Source: Candidatus Planktophila sulfonica (GTDB lineage: Bacteria; Actinomycetota; Actinomycetes; Nanopelagicales; Nanopelagicaceae). From it: a stretch of DNA of 64,000 nt. Location of the stretch: assembly GCF_002288065.1 (NCBI RefSeq), contig NZ_CP016773.1, positions 1 through 64,000 of the forward strand, in the 5' to 3' direction. The notes beneath the pieces were generated by a model. It had not been told where the DNA came from, ran no database searches, and worked only from the letters and a program-made list of their open reading frames with translations. A program made the position numbers and the translations under genes. Below are positions 54,938 to 63,168 of the stretch, piece by piece; the stretch's first letter is position 1, and the number at the start of each line of letters is the position of its first letter.

Positions 54938-56254
54938 GTGGCACTTAGCGTATGGACAGTTGCTGAACTGGGGGCTTTTTACACTGAGCACCGTTCAGAG
55001 CTACTTGTGCATGCCAATCGCGTATTGAAGGATTCAGCTAAGGCTGAAGAAATCACCCAAGACTCTCTTATTAAGTTCATGCTCGCTGCCCCTGAGCTTG
55101 AATCACAAGAGCACGCACTCTCTTATCTTCACCGCACTATTGAAAACCTCTGCATCGACTACTTCCGCATGGAAGGGCGCCGTCCAAACCTTGTGGTTAT
55201 CGATGATGCCCAGGCTGAAGTTGAAGCTGCATGGCAGGTTTCAGGTGATCACTCAGAAGTTCTTACTCAGGCTGAAGATGCGGCGATTATTCGCCAGGCT
55301 TTGGCTCTTCTCTCACCTGCTGAGCGCGCAGCGCTTGTGATGTGGGAGATGGAAGGCCGTTCAACTGAAGAAATCGCTGCAGAGCTTGGAATCAAGGAAT
55401 CTGCAGTGCGTCACACAGTTTCACGCGCTCGCACATCCCTTCGCCGCGTGCTTTCAGAGCTTGTTATTGATCAAGAGCGTGGCCTTACAGCTCTTGACAT
55501 GCTTTCAACCACCTATAAGAAGGCATCTGAGCTCGCAGCTAAGTCTTCAAAAGTTGCCTTGTCCTTACTATTAGTAGTTACAGCATTCCTTGGCTTTAAC
55601 TCAATGACTGGCCGCGAAGGAGTTCTTCCAACAGTCAGCTCAAAAGATTCAACAGGAGCCGTAGCTGGATCTGCCTCAACAGATTCACCATCACCTGCCC
55701 CATCTATCTCGATGCCAGCAAAGAAGTCATCAACGATGGTTTCTGGAGTATACGTCAAGAGCGCAAAGGCTTACTGGCCTGGCCTTGATAACGAGGGCGT
55801 CCCAACAGGATTCACCGTCGCAGGTGAAAATGGTCCAATCGGAAAGATCCGCGTAAACCGCAATACTCCGATTGCGACCGAAGAAGGCACAATTTTGGCC
55901 ACCCAGGCCATCACATCTGGGGGTGGACCAAATGTGATGATCGATCAGACCATCACAGTCGATGGCAACGGCACAAAGTATGAGGTCAGTTACGTAGCAC
56001 TCGGAATCAAGGGCAATTGGGCGGTAGCTGAGGCTGACGCCACGAGCGTGGATTTTGAGCGTATGTCCAATGGCCAGTACCTTATGACCGTTACAATTTC
56101 CCTACTCTCGACCCCAACTTCAGAGTTCGTAATCCCCGTGGGCGACCGCGGCTACGACCTTGTTGGCGCACCTAAGACGATCACGTCTCGTCTCTTGCTC
56201 AATGCGAGCAAGACCCAAATTTTGGCTCAGGCGGTATTAGTACCCGGAGCATAA
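54938..56254 (+). CDS. ECF sigma factor fused to a membrane anchor and outside domain
   Basis: The 438-residue protein begins with ECF sigma region 2 (about 10-85, with EEITQDSLIKFMLA and NLCIDYFRMEGR). Region 4 follows (about 115-172), with ALLSPAERAALVMWEMEGRS and a helix-turn-helix EEIAAELGIKESAVRHTVSRARTSLRRVL. A single hydrophobic segment (206-221, VALSLLLVVTAFLGF) precedes a Ser/Pro-rich linker (222-266). The last 170 residues form a soluble domain that should lie outside. No separate anti-sigma gene is next to it. Release by cleavage or conformational change would allow envelope sensing. It lies directly upstream of the S-layer-like gene. Confidence 0.82.
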   Translation: MALSVWTVAELGAFYTEHRSELLVHANRVLKDSAKAEEITQDSLIKFMLAAPELESQEHALSYLHRTIENLCIDYFRMEGRRPNLVVIDDAQAEVEAAWQVSGDHSEVLTQAEDAAIIRQALALLSPAERAALVMWEMEGRSTEEIAAELGIKESAVRHTVSRARTSLRRVLSELVIDQERGLTALDMLSTTYKKASELAAKSSKVALSLLLVVTAFLGFNSMTGREGVLPTVSSKDSTGAVAGSASTDSPSPAPSISMPAKKSSTMVSGVYVKSAKAYWPGLDNEGVPTGFTVAGENGPIGKIRVNRNTPIATEEGTILATQAITSGGGPNVMIDQTITVDGNGTKYEVSYVALGIKGNWAVAEADATSVDFERMSNGQYLMTVTISLLSTPTSEFVIPVGDRGYDLVGAPKTITSRLLLNASKTQILAQAVLVPGA

Positions 56255-56264
56255 TTAAATAAGT

Positions 56265-56373
56265 TTCTTCACCGCGTCCGGATACACGGTGGAGAATTTG
56301 ATTCATCAGCACGTGCGATGAATCGAGAGGAATTGAGAAATCAATTCCAAGCCGACCTACGGAAATTCCGTAG
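56265..56373 (+). ncRNA. Four-hairpin leader upstream of the S-layer-like gene
   Basis: Stem 1 pairs TTCTTCACCG (56265-56274) with CGGTGGAGAA (56287-56296), one G-U wobble. Stem 2 pairs GATTCATC (56300-56307) with GATGAATC (56317-56324), its loop holding GCACGTGC. Stem 3 pairs GGAATTGA (56329-56336) with TCAATTCC (56341-56348) around a GAAA tetraloop. Stem 4 pairs CTACGGAA (56357-56364) with TTCCGTAG (56366-56373). AAAGGA at 56385-56390 remains free before the ATG at 56396. A stabilising or regulatory 5' leader is likely; stem 1 could instead end the sigma-gene transcript. Confidence 0.7.
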
Positions 56374-56395
56374 ATCGACTATCGAAAGGAAACAA

Positions 56396-58300
56396 ATGTC
56401 TACAAAGACAACATTCAAGCGCGTAGCGCTTGTAGCAGTTGCAGCTTTGGGTCTCGGTGTTCTTTCAGTTGCGCCTTCAAACGCAGCTGCAATTTCAGTA
56501 ACCGTTACACCATCAGCTACAACTTCAACAATCAAGACTGGTGAAACAGCAACGATTTCACTTACAGTTTCAGGAATCCTCGGCGGAGCCGGCGAATCTC
56601 TAACTGTTGTTGGTGTTCGCACAAAGGGTGCATCTGGAACTGTTAACTTCAACGGAACAACAGATTCAACAACTACACAACTTCGCGCAGGATCATCATC
56701 AGGAGCTGGAGCAGTTCTTGCTTCTGGCGCATACTCTGCAGATGGAATTGCACTTGATACAACTACTGCAAGCGCATCAGGTACACCTGTTCGTGCAGTA
56801 GTCAAGGCTAACTTGGTAAACCCAACAACAGCCGGTACATACGAAGTTACAATCTACACAGCAGCAGCTAACGGTTCTGTTGGTACAACAGATATCAAGC
56901 CATTCGTATGGACAGTCACAGTTACAGCTGATTCGAAGATTGCAGATACTTCATCTACTTCAACAATTTCAGCTGGAACTTCTAACCCAGGAACTGCAGA
57001 TGCAACAGTTGTTGCAACTTCAGCTACAACAGGTACAGCAGCAGCAGCAACAATTAAGTTCGTTGCTAGCAACGCAACAGCATCAACAGCTGATCCAATC
57101 AACGTAACAGTTGCTGGTCCAGGATTCTTGGTTACTGGTACTGATACAACTACATCGATGGCTCGCGCTAACGCAACAGCTCGTTTTGTAACAACAGGTA
57201 CAGGTGCAACTAACTACGTACTCGTCTACTCAGATGGAACAGCTGGAAAGTCAACAATTACTTTCACAAGCTCACTTTCTGGCGCAGTACTTGCTACAGA
57301 ATCACTTACATTCGCTGACAAGAAGCCTTCAACAATCACTGTTGCAGTGAAGAAGGCATACATTGCTGCTGGTAAGACAACACCTAAGGTATTCTCTGTT
57401 TCTGTAAAGGATTCAGCAGGTAACTTGGTTACTGATTCAACAATCACAGGTACACGTACCGACACAACTACAGCTGGTAAGGCAATTGCTACAGCAGATT
57501 TAACATGTGGTTCTTTCGATACCAAAGACTTGGTCTACTACTGTTCAGCAACTGGTACTTCATCAGTAGCGTTCGGTGCAGCTGAGTACAAGATCACAGC
57601 AACAGGAACAGACGCAGATGCAACAGCAGTTTCAGCAATGGGTTCAACCTATTACTCAGACATCGTTGCAGCTTCTGTATCTATCACTGCTCCTGCTACA
57701 GCATCTGTTGGTGACAAGGTCACATACACACTTACACTCACAGACAAGAACGGTAAGCCAGTAGCTGACTCAACATACGAAGGTGCAGCTGCGAACCAGT
57801 CTGCAGCTCTCGGTCAGTTCGGTGGAATCCTTTGGAACACAACAACAGTTCCTACATACACATCAGCAGTTAAGCCATTCAACGCTGGTGAAACAGTAAC
57901 TACAGTTTCTGGTGTTGCTACTGTTGACGTTTACGTTCCAGCAGTATCAGGAACAATCACAAACACCTGGGTACTTGCAGGTAAGTCTGGTGCGGCTGTT
58001 GGAGCAATTGCAGATGCAATCGCTGGAACAACAATCACAACAACCACTGTTGTAACTAACCCAGGCGTAGATGCAGCTACAGATGCAGCTAACGAAGCGA
58101 CAGATGCAGCTAACGCAGCTACAGATGCAGCTCTTGCAGCAGCAGATGCAGCAGATGCAGCAACAGCTGCAGCTCAGGATGCATCAGATGCAGTTGCAGC
58201 ACTTTCAGCAACTGTTGCTAAGTTGGTCGCAAGCCTCAAGGCTCAGATCACATCATTGACTAACCTAGTCATCAAGATCCAGAAGAAGGTCAAGGCTTAA
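56396..58300 (+). CDS. S-layer-like secreted surface protein
   Basis: A 634-residue exported protein. It has a Sec signal (FKRVALVAVAALGLGVLSVAPSNA, cleaved near 30-32), then a Thr/Ser/Ala-rich body of repeated immunoglobulin-like beta units (for example SVTVTPSATTSTIKTGETATISLTVSG and SITAPATASVGDKVTYTLTLTDKNGKPVADSTYEG). An Ala/Asp-rich tail (about 558-600, DAATDAANEATDAAN repeats) follows, and the C-terminus is LTNLVIKIQKKVKA. Low Cys and Trp, biased composition and strong codon uniformity suggest high expression. ATG 56396 has AAAGGA; a longer frame from 56318 would run through the hairpin leader. A strong terminator follows. Confidence 0.75.
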   Translation: MSTKTTFKRVALVAVAALGLGVLSVAPSNAAAISVTVTPSATTSTIKTGETATISLTVSGILGGAGESLTVVGVRTKGASGTVNFNGTTDSTTTQLRAGSSSGAGAVLASGAYSADGIALDTTTASASGTPVRAVVKANLVNPTTAGTYEVTIYTAAANGSVGTTDIKPFVWTVTVTADSKIADTSSTSTISAGTSNPGTADATVVATSATTGTAAAATIKFVASNATASTADPINVTVAGPGFLVTGTDTTTSMARANATARFVTTGTGATNYVLVYSDGTAGKSTITFTSSLSGAVLATESLTFADKKPSTITVAVKKAYIAAGKTTPKVFSVSVKDSAGNLVTDSTITGTRTDTTTAGKAIATADLTCGSFDTKDLVYYCSATGTSSVAFGAAEYKITATGTDADATAVSAMGSTYYSDIVAASVSITAPATASVGDKVTYTLTLTDKNGKPVADSTYEGAAANQSAALGQFGGILWNTTTVPTYTSAVKPFNAGETVTTVSGVATVDVYVPAVSGTITNTWVLAGKSGAAVGAIADAIAGTTITTTTVVTNPGVDAATDAANEATDAANAATDAALAAADAADAATAAAQDASDAVAALSATVAKLVASLKAQITSLTNLVIKIQKKVKA

Positions 58301-58330
58301 TTAGCCCCCTTTGACTGAAAAGATCACAAG

Positions 58331-58374
58331 CCGTAGCCCGGCTCTCTTCGCGGAGAGTCGGGCTACGGCCTTTC
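58331..58374 (+). terminator. Strong rho-independent terminator
   Basis: CCGTAGCCCGGCTCTC (58331-58346), loop TTCGCG and GAGAGTCGGGCTACGG (58353-58368) make a 16-bp stem with one G-T wobble, followed by CCTTTCT. It ends the S-layer-like gene transcript. Confidence 0.92.
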
Positions 58375-58408: not shown

Positions 58409-60118
58409 ATGTTGAAGAGCCAATACGAAAGCACGATGGCAAAACTCCTTTTTACTGGAGTGCCATTCACGTCTATGTTCTTGATAACTGGCTCTGTCAC
58501 AGATCCTGTGAATGTAACGAAATTCTTTGCTCTGGGCGGTGTTGGATTTTCCGCTCTTTCCTTATTCCTAATTCGCGGATTTAAGAGTGGGTTTTCGGTA
58601 AGTCGCCCAGTTGTGATTCTGGCTGGTTTGTTCGTTTCATTATCTTTCATATCAATTCTTACGAGTGATTCACCACTTCCCCAAAATTTATACGGAGTAT
58701 TTGGAAGAAACACCGGTTTTCTTACTTACCTTTTCCTTTCAGGCTTACTTCTCGGCGCGCTAACCTTGCAAAAAACAGAAAGTTTCAAAAAGTTGTATTT
58801 AGGGCTCTTCTTTACCGGCGTGATTAATGTTTTGTACTGTGGATGGGCCGCTTTCTTTGGTGATTTTATTGGTTGGGATAACCCATATGGAAACATTCTT
58901 GGCCTATTCGGTAACCCAAACTTTATTGGGGCATTCTTAGGGATTTGGATTTCAGCAACTATTGGATACTTGCTGGGAGCGGGTTTGCCGTTGTGGCAGC
59001 GAATTTCCGTAGTGGCGCTTTTGATATTGAGTCTTTATGCGGTCTACGAAACTCATGCAGTTCAAGGGGTCGTAGTTACCGCAGCCGGTACGGCAACCGT
59101 CGGATTCTTTTTCATCAGAAGCAAGACAAAAGGATGGCTGCCAGTCAGTCTTTACTCTGGCGCGGTCCTCAGCTTTGGATTTGTCGCACTTGCTGGCGCA
59201 CTTCAAAAAGGGCCACTCGCGGAGATTGTTTACAAGACTTCGGTTTCTCTTCGTGGAGCGTATTGGAATGCAGGATTGCAATCAGCACTCAGCCACCCCT
59301 TTACTGGTGTTGGTATGGACGGATACGGCGATTGGTACCGTAGATCTCGCTCAGTGAATGCTGCGACTGTTTTGCCAGGTCCAAGTACGGTCACAAACTC
59401 GGCACACAATGTTGTTTTAGATATTTTTTCATACGGCGGATTCCCGCTAGTAATGAGCTACTTGGGGTTGCTTCTCCTCGGTGCGCTAGCGATTCTTCGT
59501 GGAATAAAGCGCACTCGAAATTATGATCCAATTTTCGTTGGATTGTCCGTTGCATGGATTGGTTATCAACTCCAATCTCTGATCAGCATCAATCAAATCG
59601 GCTTAGCAGTGTGGGGCTGGGTACTAACAGGCGCCCTCGTTGCTTACGAAGCAAGTCAAAGACGCGCTTCTTCTTCAACAAATAGTGAAGAAGGCTTTAA
59701 GCAGAGCGGACGAGCAGTTAAGACCAAGCAGGGTGAGGTAATTTCGAGCCCACTTATTGCAGGCCTAGGTTTGGTAGTTGGCTTAATTCTTGCTGCTCCG
59801 CCAATCAGCGCTGATATGGCATGGTTTAAAGCAACTAATTCAGGGAATTTGGTAGAAGTTGAAAAGGTGTTAAAGCCGTCTTATCTTCATCCTCCAAGTT
59901 CCGAGAGGCTCGTCAACGTTGTGGCCATTCTAGAAAACAGCAAATTATTTGATAAAGCCCGTGAATATGCTCTTAAAGCTACTGAATACAACCCTGAGAA
60001 TTTTGACTCATGGAATGCGCTGTACTCAGTAAAGAATTCAACCCCTGTTGAAAAAGAGCTTGCACTCAAGAATATGAAGCGCTTGGATCCCAATAACCCT
60101 GAAATAAACAAAAGATAA
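58409..60118 (+). CDS. O-antigen ligase/polymerase-like membrane protein (Wzy_C) with TPR tail
   Basis: A 569-residue polytopic protein with about 12 hydrophobic segments. It has the Wzy_C/WaaL-type outside loop: GAYWNAGLQSALSHPFTGVGMDGYGDWY, with the conserved Arg/His-rich continuation TNSAHNVVLDIFSYGGFPLV. After the last membrane segment a short TPR-like region (about 485-565, KLFDKAREYALKATEYNPENFDSWNAL) follows. Ligases of this type attach a lipid-linked glycan to a protein or lipid, or polymerise it. It is just downstream of the S-layer-like gene, and its stop abuts the dehydrogenase ATG. Confidence 0.78.
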   Translation: MLKSQYESTMAKLLFTGVPFTSMFLITGSVTDPVNVTKFFALGGVGFSALSLFLIRGFKSGFSVSRPVVILAGLFVSLSFISILTSDSPLPQNLYGVFGRNTGFLTYLFLSGLLLGALTLQKTESFKKLYLGLFFTGVINVLYCGWAAFFGDFIGWDNPYGNILGLFGNPNFIGAFLGIWISATIGYLLGAGLPLWQRISVVALLILSLYAVYETHAVQGVVVTAAGTATVGFFFIRSKTKGWLPVSLYSGAVLSFGFVALAGALQKGPLAEIVYKTSVSLRGAYWNAGLQSALSHPFTGVGMDGYGDWYRRSRSVNAATVLPGPSTVTNSAHNVVLDIFSYGGFPLVMSYLGLLLLGALAILRGIKRTRNYDPIFVGLSVAWIGYQLQSLISINQIGLAVWGWVLTGALVAYEASQRRASSSTNSEEGFKQSGRAVKTKQGEVISSPLIAGLGLVVGLILAAPPISADMAWFKATNSGNLVEVEKVLKPSYLHPPSSERLVNVVAILENSKLFDKAREYALKATEYNPENFDSWNALYSVKNSTPVEKELALKNMKRLDPNNPEINKR

Positions 60119-61362: not shown

Positions 61363-63168
61363 ATGAGGCGAATGGTTGCTCGAGCATTAATCACTTGCCT
61401 GGCTGGAGTTTTAACTGCTTTTCCTGCACAAGCTGCCGTGAAGGCAGGAGCGGTCTGCTCTAAAGCTGGCACAACCGCAACTTTGGGTGGGTATAAATAC
61501 ACATGTGCAAAGACCGGCAAGAAACTCATTTGGAAAAAGGGTTCAAAAGTCACGGTACCGAAACCTTCACCTAGCCCAAGTCCTGTTAACTTGCCATCAA
61601 GTACTCCGTCTCCAATTCTCTCTCCGGCACCAACAGTTTCAATAAGTGCTCTTCCGAGCCCGATTGCAAGCGTAAGCATTGCTCCTCCCTTTGCAGATCC
61701 AACCCCTACACAACTGATACCCAAACTTATTTTGGTAGCATCTACTTTTAATAGCTACACATTCACGATCAGTAACTACAGCTCACAATTCTCTTGGAGA
61801 GTCTCCACAACTGCTGGCTATCATTCGATTTCAAATTTAGGGAAAGTGGTCATTTCGGGTCTAAAACCTGGAGAGATATCTGCAGCGACAGTTATTGCAT
61901 CAAGGCCACAGTACAAAGATGGGTCAGCGACTATTTATGGTGAGGCAACACTCCTAAGTGAAGGTTTCTTACCCAAGTTAAAACTTGAAAACGAACAGTC
62001 CAATGAATTCTATGTAAGAGTTGAAAACTATGACGCAAGCTTTATCTGGACACCCGAGGTAACCAGAGGCTTCGTCACGCAGCCAATGCCAGGGCTCTTC
62101 CGCGTCTATGGGTTCTCATGGTCAGAAGGATCCATATTCTTAAAAGTTACCTCAACCAAGCTAGGTTTTAAGCCAGGTTTTAGTACATTCATAAAAACAC
62201 CACCCGCACCATCACCAAGCCCATCACCAAGCCCATCACCAAGCCCATCACCGGCATATTTCGTCTCTATAATCGCGGTTGATAAAGCTGCAATCACAAC
62301 AGGACAATCTGTAACCGTAAATTTCAGTCTTACAACAACTAGTATCTCTAGGTTTGATCAACCGCTCACAGTGCTTTTTGGCATTGAATATGATGAGTAT
62401 TTTCCTGGCACTCCAGCGAGATTAGTCTCTGGCAATATCTCAAGTGGAAGCTATACGGCTACCGTCAGCCTTCCAAAGCTTGCCCCCGGTGGTATCTATC
62501 CAGTCTATATTTTTAGCCAAGGCTTTATAAGCGTCAAGGGACCATCGGTGAACTTCACACCAAGCCCAACACCAAGCCCAACACCAAGCCCAACACCAAG
62601 CCCAACACCAAGCCCAACACCAAGCCCAACACCAAGCCCAACACCAAGCCCAACACCAAGCCCAACACCAAGCCCAACACCAACAGTTTCGACACCGCCA
62701 GTTGCTCCGATAACTGTCGTTGACTATGCAAAACCAGTCATACGAGAGAACTCAGGCTATTTCACTCCATACTCAGACGGCGTGATCAATCCACAAAATC
62801 CAAGCATAGTTAAATACATAACCTGGCCAGGTTTCCAAATAACCGCATCAGCTCAATCGGATGATGGACTTTCCGCTATGTACCTTCGTATGTTTTATCC
62901 AGATTCCACATCGAATTTGGTCCCCATAACTGTTGATATGAGCTCAACTTTGCCTTGTGGTCCTTGGCCTGCCTCGGAATCCTCAAAAAAAGGTTGTGGA
63001 AATTTCTTCAACTACGGTCAAGCCACTCGAACAATTAGCATTGACGCAGGAGTCCTAAAGGCGCTCCCTAATGGTAAATATAGGTTTCAAGCTCAAGTTA
63101 GAGGATGGGTTTCGAATAAGTATTCAGAATGGACAGACATCGCAGTCCTTACAATTCAAAATAACTAA
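61363..63168 (+). CDS. Secreted proline-rich repeat protein
   Basis: A 601-residue exported protein. It has a signal peptide ([18 protein letters not shown]), then a small two-Cys module (residues 26-66, [33 protein letters not shown]), a Pro/Ser linker, beta-rich domains, a PSPS spacer near 283-297 and a long TPSP repeat near 399-440, then a C-terminal beta domain with two Cys. The repeats look like stiff spacers separating folded parts. I do not recognise the C-terminal domain. It may be a cell-wall or surface-associated protein. Confidence 0.72.
62209..62252 (+). repeat. 12-bp tandem repeat, 3.7 copies
   Basis: The unit CCATCACCAAGC occurs three full times (62209-62244) plus eight bases. 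It encodes Pro-Ser repeats in the secreted protein. Confidence 0.9.
62557..62676 (+). repeat. 12-bp tandem repeat, 10 perfect copies
   Basis: The unit ACACCAAGCCCA is repeated ten times without a change, followed by a partial copy (ACACCAACAG). It encodes TPSP repeats in the secreted protein. Its length may vary between strains by slippage, always in frame. Confidence 0.95.

Follow-up and report, generated by a model that had tools for sequence, protein, structure and literature searches.

The leader of slp, a gene for a surface-layer-like protein in Candidatus Planktophila sulfonica, contains hairpins that are RNA structure under selection (HP1, HP2, and HP4). HP1 and HP2 form a fixed module in which a CCGGA loop is followed at a constant distance by a hairpin with a bulged A and an ACGU loop, and HP4, together with a fifth hairpin in the coding sequence (HP5), flanks the slp ribosome-binding site and start codon. 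On balance, we think that this element is probably a dedicated, family-specific, post-transcriptional leader that acts in cis on slp and is read in trans through HP1 and HP2. The sequence analyzed, here called the window, covers the first 64 kb of a genome assembled as a single contig of 1,344,614 bases (G000), and belongs to a family that we take to be the acI lake actinobacteria, which include 'Ca. Planktophila'.

Predicted Fold and Genetic Context of the Leader

All features described here lie on the + strand. The leader is bounded by an ORF for an ECF-type sigma factor (54938-56254; sigma-70 regions 2 and 4, Pfam PF04542 and PF08281, with a C-terminal extension) and by the slp ATG at 56396 behind the sequence GAAAGGA, which are the flanks given in an initial annotation of this DNA. 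That annotation had also placed four consecutive hairpins in the gap, and folding predicts them almost exactly so: the minimum free energy (MFE) of 56240-56400 is -54.9 kcal/mol, compared with a mean of -33.5 (sd 3.7) for shuffled sequences (z -5.78; 0/200 shuffles as low). Including the first slp codons (56257-56440) adds HP5 and gives a z of -7.18, again with 0/200 shuffles as low, and the MFE and centroid structures of the leader are nearly identical. Among 6388 segments of 120 nt covering the 64 kb on both strands at a step of 20, the segment of the leader ranks 5th as read on the + strand and 1st if read on the - strand; the single + strand segment that folds better, at 58261, contains the terminator of slp itself.

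HP1 (56265-56296) has a 13-position stem with one C.A mismatch (10+2 bp in the predicted fold) and the loop CCGGAU at 56278-56283. HP2 (56298-56326; 12 bp in the predicted fold) has a single bulged A at 56308, followed by 2 bp and the tetraloop ACGU at 56311-56314, and both hairpins are supported by fold and covariation. HP3 (56329-56348) is an optional module, present here in a short form of 8 bp closed by the GAAA tetraloop that had been noticed earlier. HP4 (56350-56380; 7+3+2 bp with two mismatches and an invariant AGCC...GAC base) lies just 5' of the ribosome-binding site GAAAGGA (56384-56390), recognized by sequence, which is invariant across an alignment of 27 leaders except for its first G context. 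HP5 (CAAGCGC-GUA-GCGCUUG, 56416-56432) lies inside slp, and a terminator-like hairpin of 18 bp follows the gene at 58330-58369. The positions first assigned to the hairpins thus stand, with stems slightly longer than described and an end of the element at about 56380 rather than 56373; the count of four holds for the leader and leaves out HP5 in the coding sequence. The treatment of the four as structures of one kind does not hold, since HP1 and HP2 make up a fixed module, HP3 is an optional one, and HP4 goes with the ribosome-binding site.

The slp gene (56396-58300) encodes 634 residues with a signal-peptide-like start, a beta-sandwich region, and a long C-terminal helix. The protein has no match to Pfam families. 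Its predicted structure (mean pLDDT 64.7, pTM 0.38) combines beta-sandwich domains with a helix of about 78 residues at the C terminus, and resembles many PDB entries with Ig-like domains, including invasin and FdeC, at TM-scores up to about 0.3, so that the model names a fold class with low confidence. The label "S-layer-like" is therefore plausible on this model but unproven.

Further features of the locus concern the cell surface. After regions 2 and 4, the sigma-factor ORF continues with a hydrophobic stretch and then about 200 residues, as if membrane-tethered, and its product could be a cell-surface sensor; a homologue of this gene lies just 5' of the leader in most of the mapped loci that reach that far. 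Directly 3' of slp is a gene for an O-antigen-ligase-like (Wzy_C) membrane protein (58409-60118). The ORF at 61363-63168, with a signal-peptide-like start and long Pro-Ser/Thr repeats of the types PSPSP and PTPSP, encodes a further surface protein near the locus, and a gene similar to it adjoins a second slp copy at locus L067.

Covariation and Anatomy of the Conserved Module

Compensatory base changes in homologous leaders, which the initial annotation had proposed to look for, are frequent and the covariation is strong. In the 27 leaders, which were gathered by two loop motifs upstream of a matching slp start and then aligned, 21 of 36 pairs have changed on both sides and 98.1% of alignment cells pair; none of 500 shuffles reached a value as high, and no slid register came close. 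A covariance model based on this alignment yields 105 distinct matches which, in an alignment fitted to the model, show two-sided changes in 33/36 pairs with 96.1% of cells pairing. We obtained a similar picture from 54 HP1+HP2 modules chosen for CCGGA plus one variant, whose alignment is almost gap-free: 20 of 25 pairs have changed on both sides, while the HP1 pair 17-28 is unpaired in 24/54 modules.

The loops and their spacing are nearly constant. The HP2 core reads AG[CT]ACGT[AG][CT] in 79 leaders, of which 78 could be checked for HP1 and 74 have the CCGGA loop; it is missing in one leader cut by a contig end and in G088, G050, and the second G092 copy, in which the HP1 loop and architecture deviate. 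CCGGA and the HP2 core are 25 nt apart in 71/74 leaders and 24 nt apart in 3/74; the distance from HP2 to the ATG varies from 64 to 139 nt. The inner pairs of HP2 compensate (CAGCACGUGCG to UAGUACGUACA or CAGUACGUACG) around a preserved ACGU loop. The same loop is kept where the loop-closing C-G has become U-A (genomes G259, G260, G278, G219, and G228), one more HP2 pair, outside the bulge, having also changed in the first three of these. In G066, G084, and G129, HP1 and HP2 are seemingly fused into one hairpin with a ACACGUGU tip. The stems tolerate G.U pairs and one-sided G-C/G-U exchanges, which point to RNA rather than DNA palindromes; because loops are also kept while their closing pairs covary, the module is probably recognized as RNA.

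HP4 and HP5 surround the translation start. HP4 is invariant at its base in the 27-leader set and has a loop of three bases flanked by GA and UC; it is also found in second slp copies. HP5 covers the codons for K-R-x-A-L and has six of six arm pairs in 81/98 cassettes; pairing is incomplete in the other 17, nine of which encode K-R-I-A-A. Its alanine codon is GCG in 80/91 cases, compared with 36/238 alanine codons in five neighboring ORFs of the window and 6/122 in the slp gene of the window. Compensatory codon pairs also occur in HP5 (CGA..TCG in 3 cassettes and AGC..GCT in 1 cassette).

Several loci carry additional copies or repeats. At L066 (G092) and L309, a second leader copy with a degenerate HP1 and an intact HP2 core lies upstream of the main one, and at L292 (G209) the sigma gene, leader, and surface-protein gene are tandemly duplicated. 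An extra inverted repeat lies about 20-40 bases 5' of HP1, near the end of the sigma gene, at L003, L006, L010, L011, and L013; its core, CACGTG or GCACGTG, echoes that of HP2.

Distribution and Association with slp

In the genomes searched, the element was found only within the family, and wherever the sequence behind it is readable it precedes slp. The covariance model matches 91/296 family genomes, 61/108 near-complete genomes, and 9/17 genera; since it also matches second slp copies that lack HP1 and HP2, 91 is not a count of full leaders, and a model of HP1 and HP2 alone matches 80/296 family genomes. In a class-level sample of 394 genomes, all 33 with a match come from the family of the window, and an order-level search with the model returned nothing beyond the same 91 family genomes. 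The sequence downstream could be read for 101 of 106 model matches, and all 101 lead into a start of the slp family (99 recognized by pattern and two KRITL variants by eye). Likewise, each of the 82 strong HP1+HP2 matches within the family is an slp leader, so no other target gene for the module appears among the strong matches in family genomes. Of the 19 weaker matches, 15 are these leaders read in antisense and two are leaders truncated by contig ends; the others are the second G092 copy and a match in G047 (E 0.016).

A protein search finds slp homologues in 78/296 family genomes. Across these 296, leader and slp occur together in 65, slp alone in 13, the leader alone in 26, and neither in 192. 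The protein search misses diverged slp copies, as the slp-like starts in leader-only genomes show. Because 205/296 genomes (including 47/108 near-complete ones) and 13/78 genomes with an slp match lack a match to the model, the element is not universal in the family. A looser genome-wide pattern scan returned at least 119 stretches, apparently chance hits for the most part, the pattern being too loose; a viral scan gave 11 stretches.

The element is absent from the reference collections that we searched. Rfam 15 gives no match above the gathering threshold across 55900-56700 (two sub-threshold chance matches, E > 0.8), and tRNAs only at seven loci from relatives. In a search of the literature on acI S-layers, surface-layer recombinases, and S-layer leaders, by title and the start of the abstract and with most subscription journals outside its coverage, no description of the element or of acI S-layer inversion was found. 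Structured leaders and surface-gene inversion are known kinds of system; the element itself, and the placement of a putative crossover inside the leader, appear to be new.

Variable HP3 and a Putative Inversion Site in Relatives

HP3 is a variable insert between HP1+HP2 and HP4, and differs widely in length and sequence between relatives. Across 74 genomes it is short in 32, long in 26, and absent in 16; G238 carries the leader with the short form. In several genomes slp is present twice, the leader of the second copy having neither HP1 nor HP2, and at seven loci (in G036, G154, G166, G196, G102, G120, and G088) two slp copies converge. One or two tyrosine recombinase genes lie between the copies at six of these loci and beside them in G088, and all four recombinases scanned match PF00589. 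At the six loci with visible sequence 5' of HP4 (G154 is cut by contig ends), the tract common to the facing copies starts at the palindromic HP3 core or as much as 14 bases ahead of it, and reaches 63 to 93 bases into the coding sequence. The G154 copies are identical over 149/149 bases. In G036 both copies have the same core TCTCATGGTTCATGAGA but different HP4 sequences, which is what exchange at the core would produce.

We searched 12 genomes for the 17-base core TCTCAT-N5-ATGAGA, from which the G102 and G120 cores deviate slightly. It occurs exactly twice, in opposite orientation and at both slp copies, in G036 and G166; once, at the leader, in G127, G128, G132, G198, G234, and G006; and once, away from the leader, in G102. 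It is absent from G009, G120, and the genome of the window. Recombinase genes adjoin the leader in 6/26 long-HP3 genomes and in 0/48 others (Fisher p = 0.0012, the genomes not being independent), and strong recombinase matches anywhere in the genome occur in 8/26 and 4/48, respectively (p = 0.02). The association is not a simple one: an adjacent recombinase is missing from 20/26 long-HP3 genomes, in some through contig ends; G127 and G128, which are single-contig genomes with a long HP3, each have one slp match and no recombinase match.

These relatives show marks of a putative S-layer inversion system: an inverted second copy that shares its 5' part, a recombinase, and, in G036 and G166, matching inverted sites. 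With one genome per species, these comparisons suggest that long-HP3 leaders in relatives serve as the expression site for a gene-swapping inversion. The G196 protein closest to the expressed protein of G232 is a G196 second copy (39% identity), a weak hint of inversion at the level of strains. The switch is absent in the window, where the leader works without it; the genome has one slp match, no match to the L067 recombinase, and no TCTCAT-N5-ATGAGA site.

At L018, L019, L030, L066, L090, and L095 the long HP3 is of another type, its arms being TTCG/CGAA in place of CTCAT/ATGAG, which perhaps reflects a different recombinase specificity. Related tyrosine recombinases are also found off the surface-protein locus or on other contigs in G129, G131, G066, and G173.

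Alternative Explanations

The initial annotation suggested a leader that stabilizes the mRNA, with which the data are compatible. Such hairpins might merely shield the 5' end and the ribosome-binding site from nucleases, with no specific reader. The very stable consecutive stems beside a free ribosome-binding site fit this well, as do the free change of stem sequence under preserved pairing and the wide differences in HP3 length and sequence. A passive shield, however, needs neither the CCGGA loop (74/78) nor the constant HP1-HP2 spacing (71/74), nor does it call for an ACGU tetraloop that is kept though its closing pairs covary. Inert stabilization explains the stems; because it does not explain near-invariant apical loops at a fixed loop-to-loop distance, more than inert stabilization is needed and a trans factor is favored. 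We regard a purely passive role as rather unlikely, though one to be taken seriously.

The leader might instead be translated in much of the family, with ribosomes reading from a start near the sigma stop in frame into slp, and the structure would then regulate, or be part of, an N-terminal extension or leader peptide. Of 79 leaders, whose relatedness makes the counts interdependent, 56 keep the slp frame open all the way from HP1 to the ATG (the other two frames are open in 10 and 16), an in-frame start codon lies upstream of HP1 in 46, often beside the sigma stop, and the HP2-to-ATG distance equals 1 modulo 3 in 64. But 15/79 are off frame and 23/79 are not open, the strong ribosome-binding site sits at the slp ATG, and the window, in which the frame is open, offers no start codon 5' of HP1. 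HP3 contains an in-frame stop in close relatives such as G124, G131, G134, and G256, and in G259, G260, and G278 the HP2 core changes pair-wise while the encoded amino acids change. A conserved N-terminal coding extension was rejected since the frame is not kept in all relatives, and translation of the leader is improbable as a general explanation, though a leader ORF may be ancestral.

Two readings are more improbable still. If HP1 and HP2 were binding or accessory recombination sites in DNA, with incidental RNA structure, their palindromic cores (UCCGGA and GCACGUGC) and the resemblance of the relatives' HP3 to a DNA recombination site would be accounted for; the tolerated G.U pairs and G-C/G-U exchanges would not. 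Nor would the equal conservation of the module in the 48/74 genomes with a short or absent HP3, none of which has a leader-adjacent recombinase, or the restriction of strong-scoring matches to the sense orientation toward slp. We give such a DNA element very little weight. A small-molecule riboswitch or attenuator, which would suit a location between a gene end and a ribosome-binding site as well as the conserved unpaired bases, seems just as remote: the hairpins are simple and independent, with no junction, the MFE and centroid structures nearly coincide, the + strand of the leader has no terminator-like stem with a T run, and Rfam gives no match. The conserved unpaired positions of the leader are apical loops and a bulge only. 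An intrinsic terminator or attenuator was rejected for the leader in its own right, as no GC-rich stem with a T run is found there on the + strand; one lies after slp (58330-58369). The GGA in the HP1 loop also led us to consider regulation by CsrA/RsmA, a candidate set aside because the genome of the window has no PF02599 match, in a search that recovered csrA from E. coli, B. subtilis, and T. maritima.

Proposed Mechanism

We favor a leader of slp that is read in trans. The slp mRNA would have HP1 and HP2 close to its 5' end, or these would mark a point of processing that lies between the sigma gene and slp. A trans factor, most plausibly an RNA-binding protein, would recognize them and so control or protect the mRNA of an abundant surface protein. 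HP4 and HP5 would hold the ribosome-binding site open. A search for a sigma-70-type promoter near the leader gave no match, and no common promoter upstream of HP1 is visible by eye. In relatives with a long HP3, a tyrosine recombinase appears to swap slp copies by inversion at the HP3 core. Since HP3 follows HP1 and HP2, whichever slp copy stands behind HP3 would come under the same HP1+HP2 control.

A broader version of this model, which we put forward tentatively and hold to be possible rather than probable, takes HP1+HP2 as the mark of a single site of S-layer expression in acI. Its reader would be a dedicated factor or an mRNA-mRNA contact through the self-complementary loops, slp genes would be switched behind the module by a tyrosine recombinase at a palindrome that doubles as HP3, and in the lineage of the window the site would be fixed to a single gene.

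Relation to Known Systems

In lactobacilli, leaders of S-layer mRNAs carry one or more stable stems in the untranslated region of an abundant surface-layer gene. The slp leader resembles these, as likened by description, in having a stable structure ahead of a (here putative) surface-layer gene, and differs in its several separately conserved hairpins, its near-invariant loops, and its occurrence in actinobacteria. HP2 is also reminiscent of the operator hairpin bound by the MS2 coat protein, in which a bulged purine, two base pairs, and a four-base loop follow one another and the loop obeys an ANYA rule; HP2 has the same order of elements and an ACGU loop that breaks the rule. We know of no protein related to an MS2-type coat protein that would read HP2.

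The arrangement in relatives can be compared with known surface-gene inversions. Boot et al. reportedly described in 1996 the exchange of S-layer genes by inversion at slpA/slpB of Lactobacillus acidophilus. The slp segment there is given as about 6 kb with one expressed and one silent S-layer gene (slpA/slpB), the silent copy lacking a promoter, in the part of the source available to us (PMC6015585). In the putative system of the acI relatives, what the second copy lacks is HP1 and HP2, the copies share sequence from the HP3 core or a short way ahead of it, and a gene for a tyrosine recombinase is situated between them or to one side. For the surface-layer genes of Campylobacter fetus and for shufflons, the consulted portion of a further source describes variants chosen by DNA inversion, and sfx sites with arms around a 7-bp core (PMC11852207); the putative core in the relatives differs in being a palindrome inside a structured mRNA leader. 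For cwpV of Clostridioides difficile, the sections seen describe a 195-bp invertible segment between the promoter and the gene of a cell-wall protein and a model with RNA structure, in which a terminator forms in the OFF state (PMC2784873). In the acI relatives, whole genes would flip and the structured module would stay in place.

acI actinobacteria are described as being among the most abundant lake bacteria in the portions consulted of two sources (PMC10202952, PMC5301498), the first of which also introduces LanE-43, a cultured 'Ca. Planktophila' strain with isolated phages. Little is known of how acI bacteria control and vary their surface, and a dedicated structured leader offers a concrete starting point for studying how genes are controlled in these reduced genomes. 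Inversion at the loci of the relatives, if real, would provide a means of changing the coat under pressure from phages or grazers, and one and the same sequence would then serve as a DNA crossover site and as a link in a structured mRNA leader.
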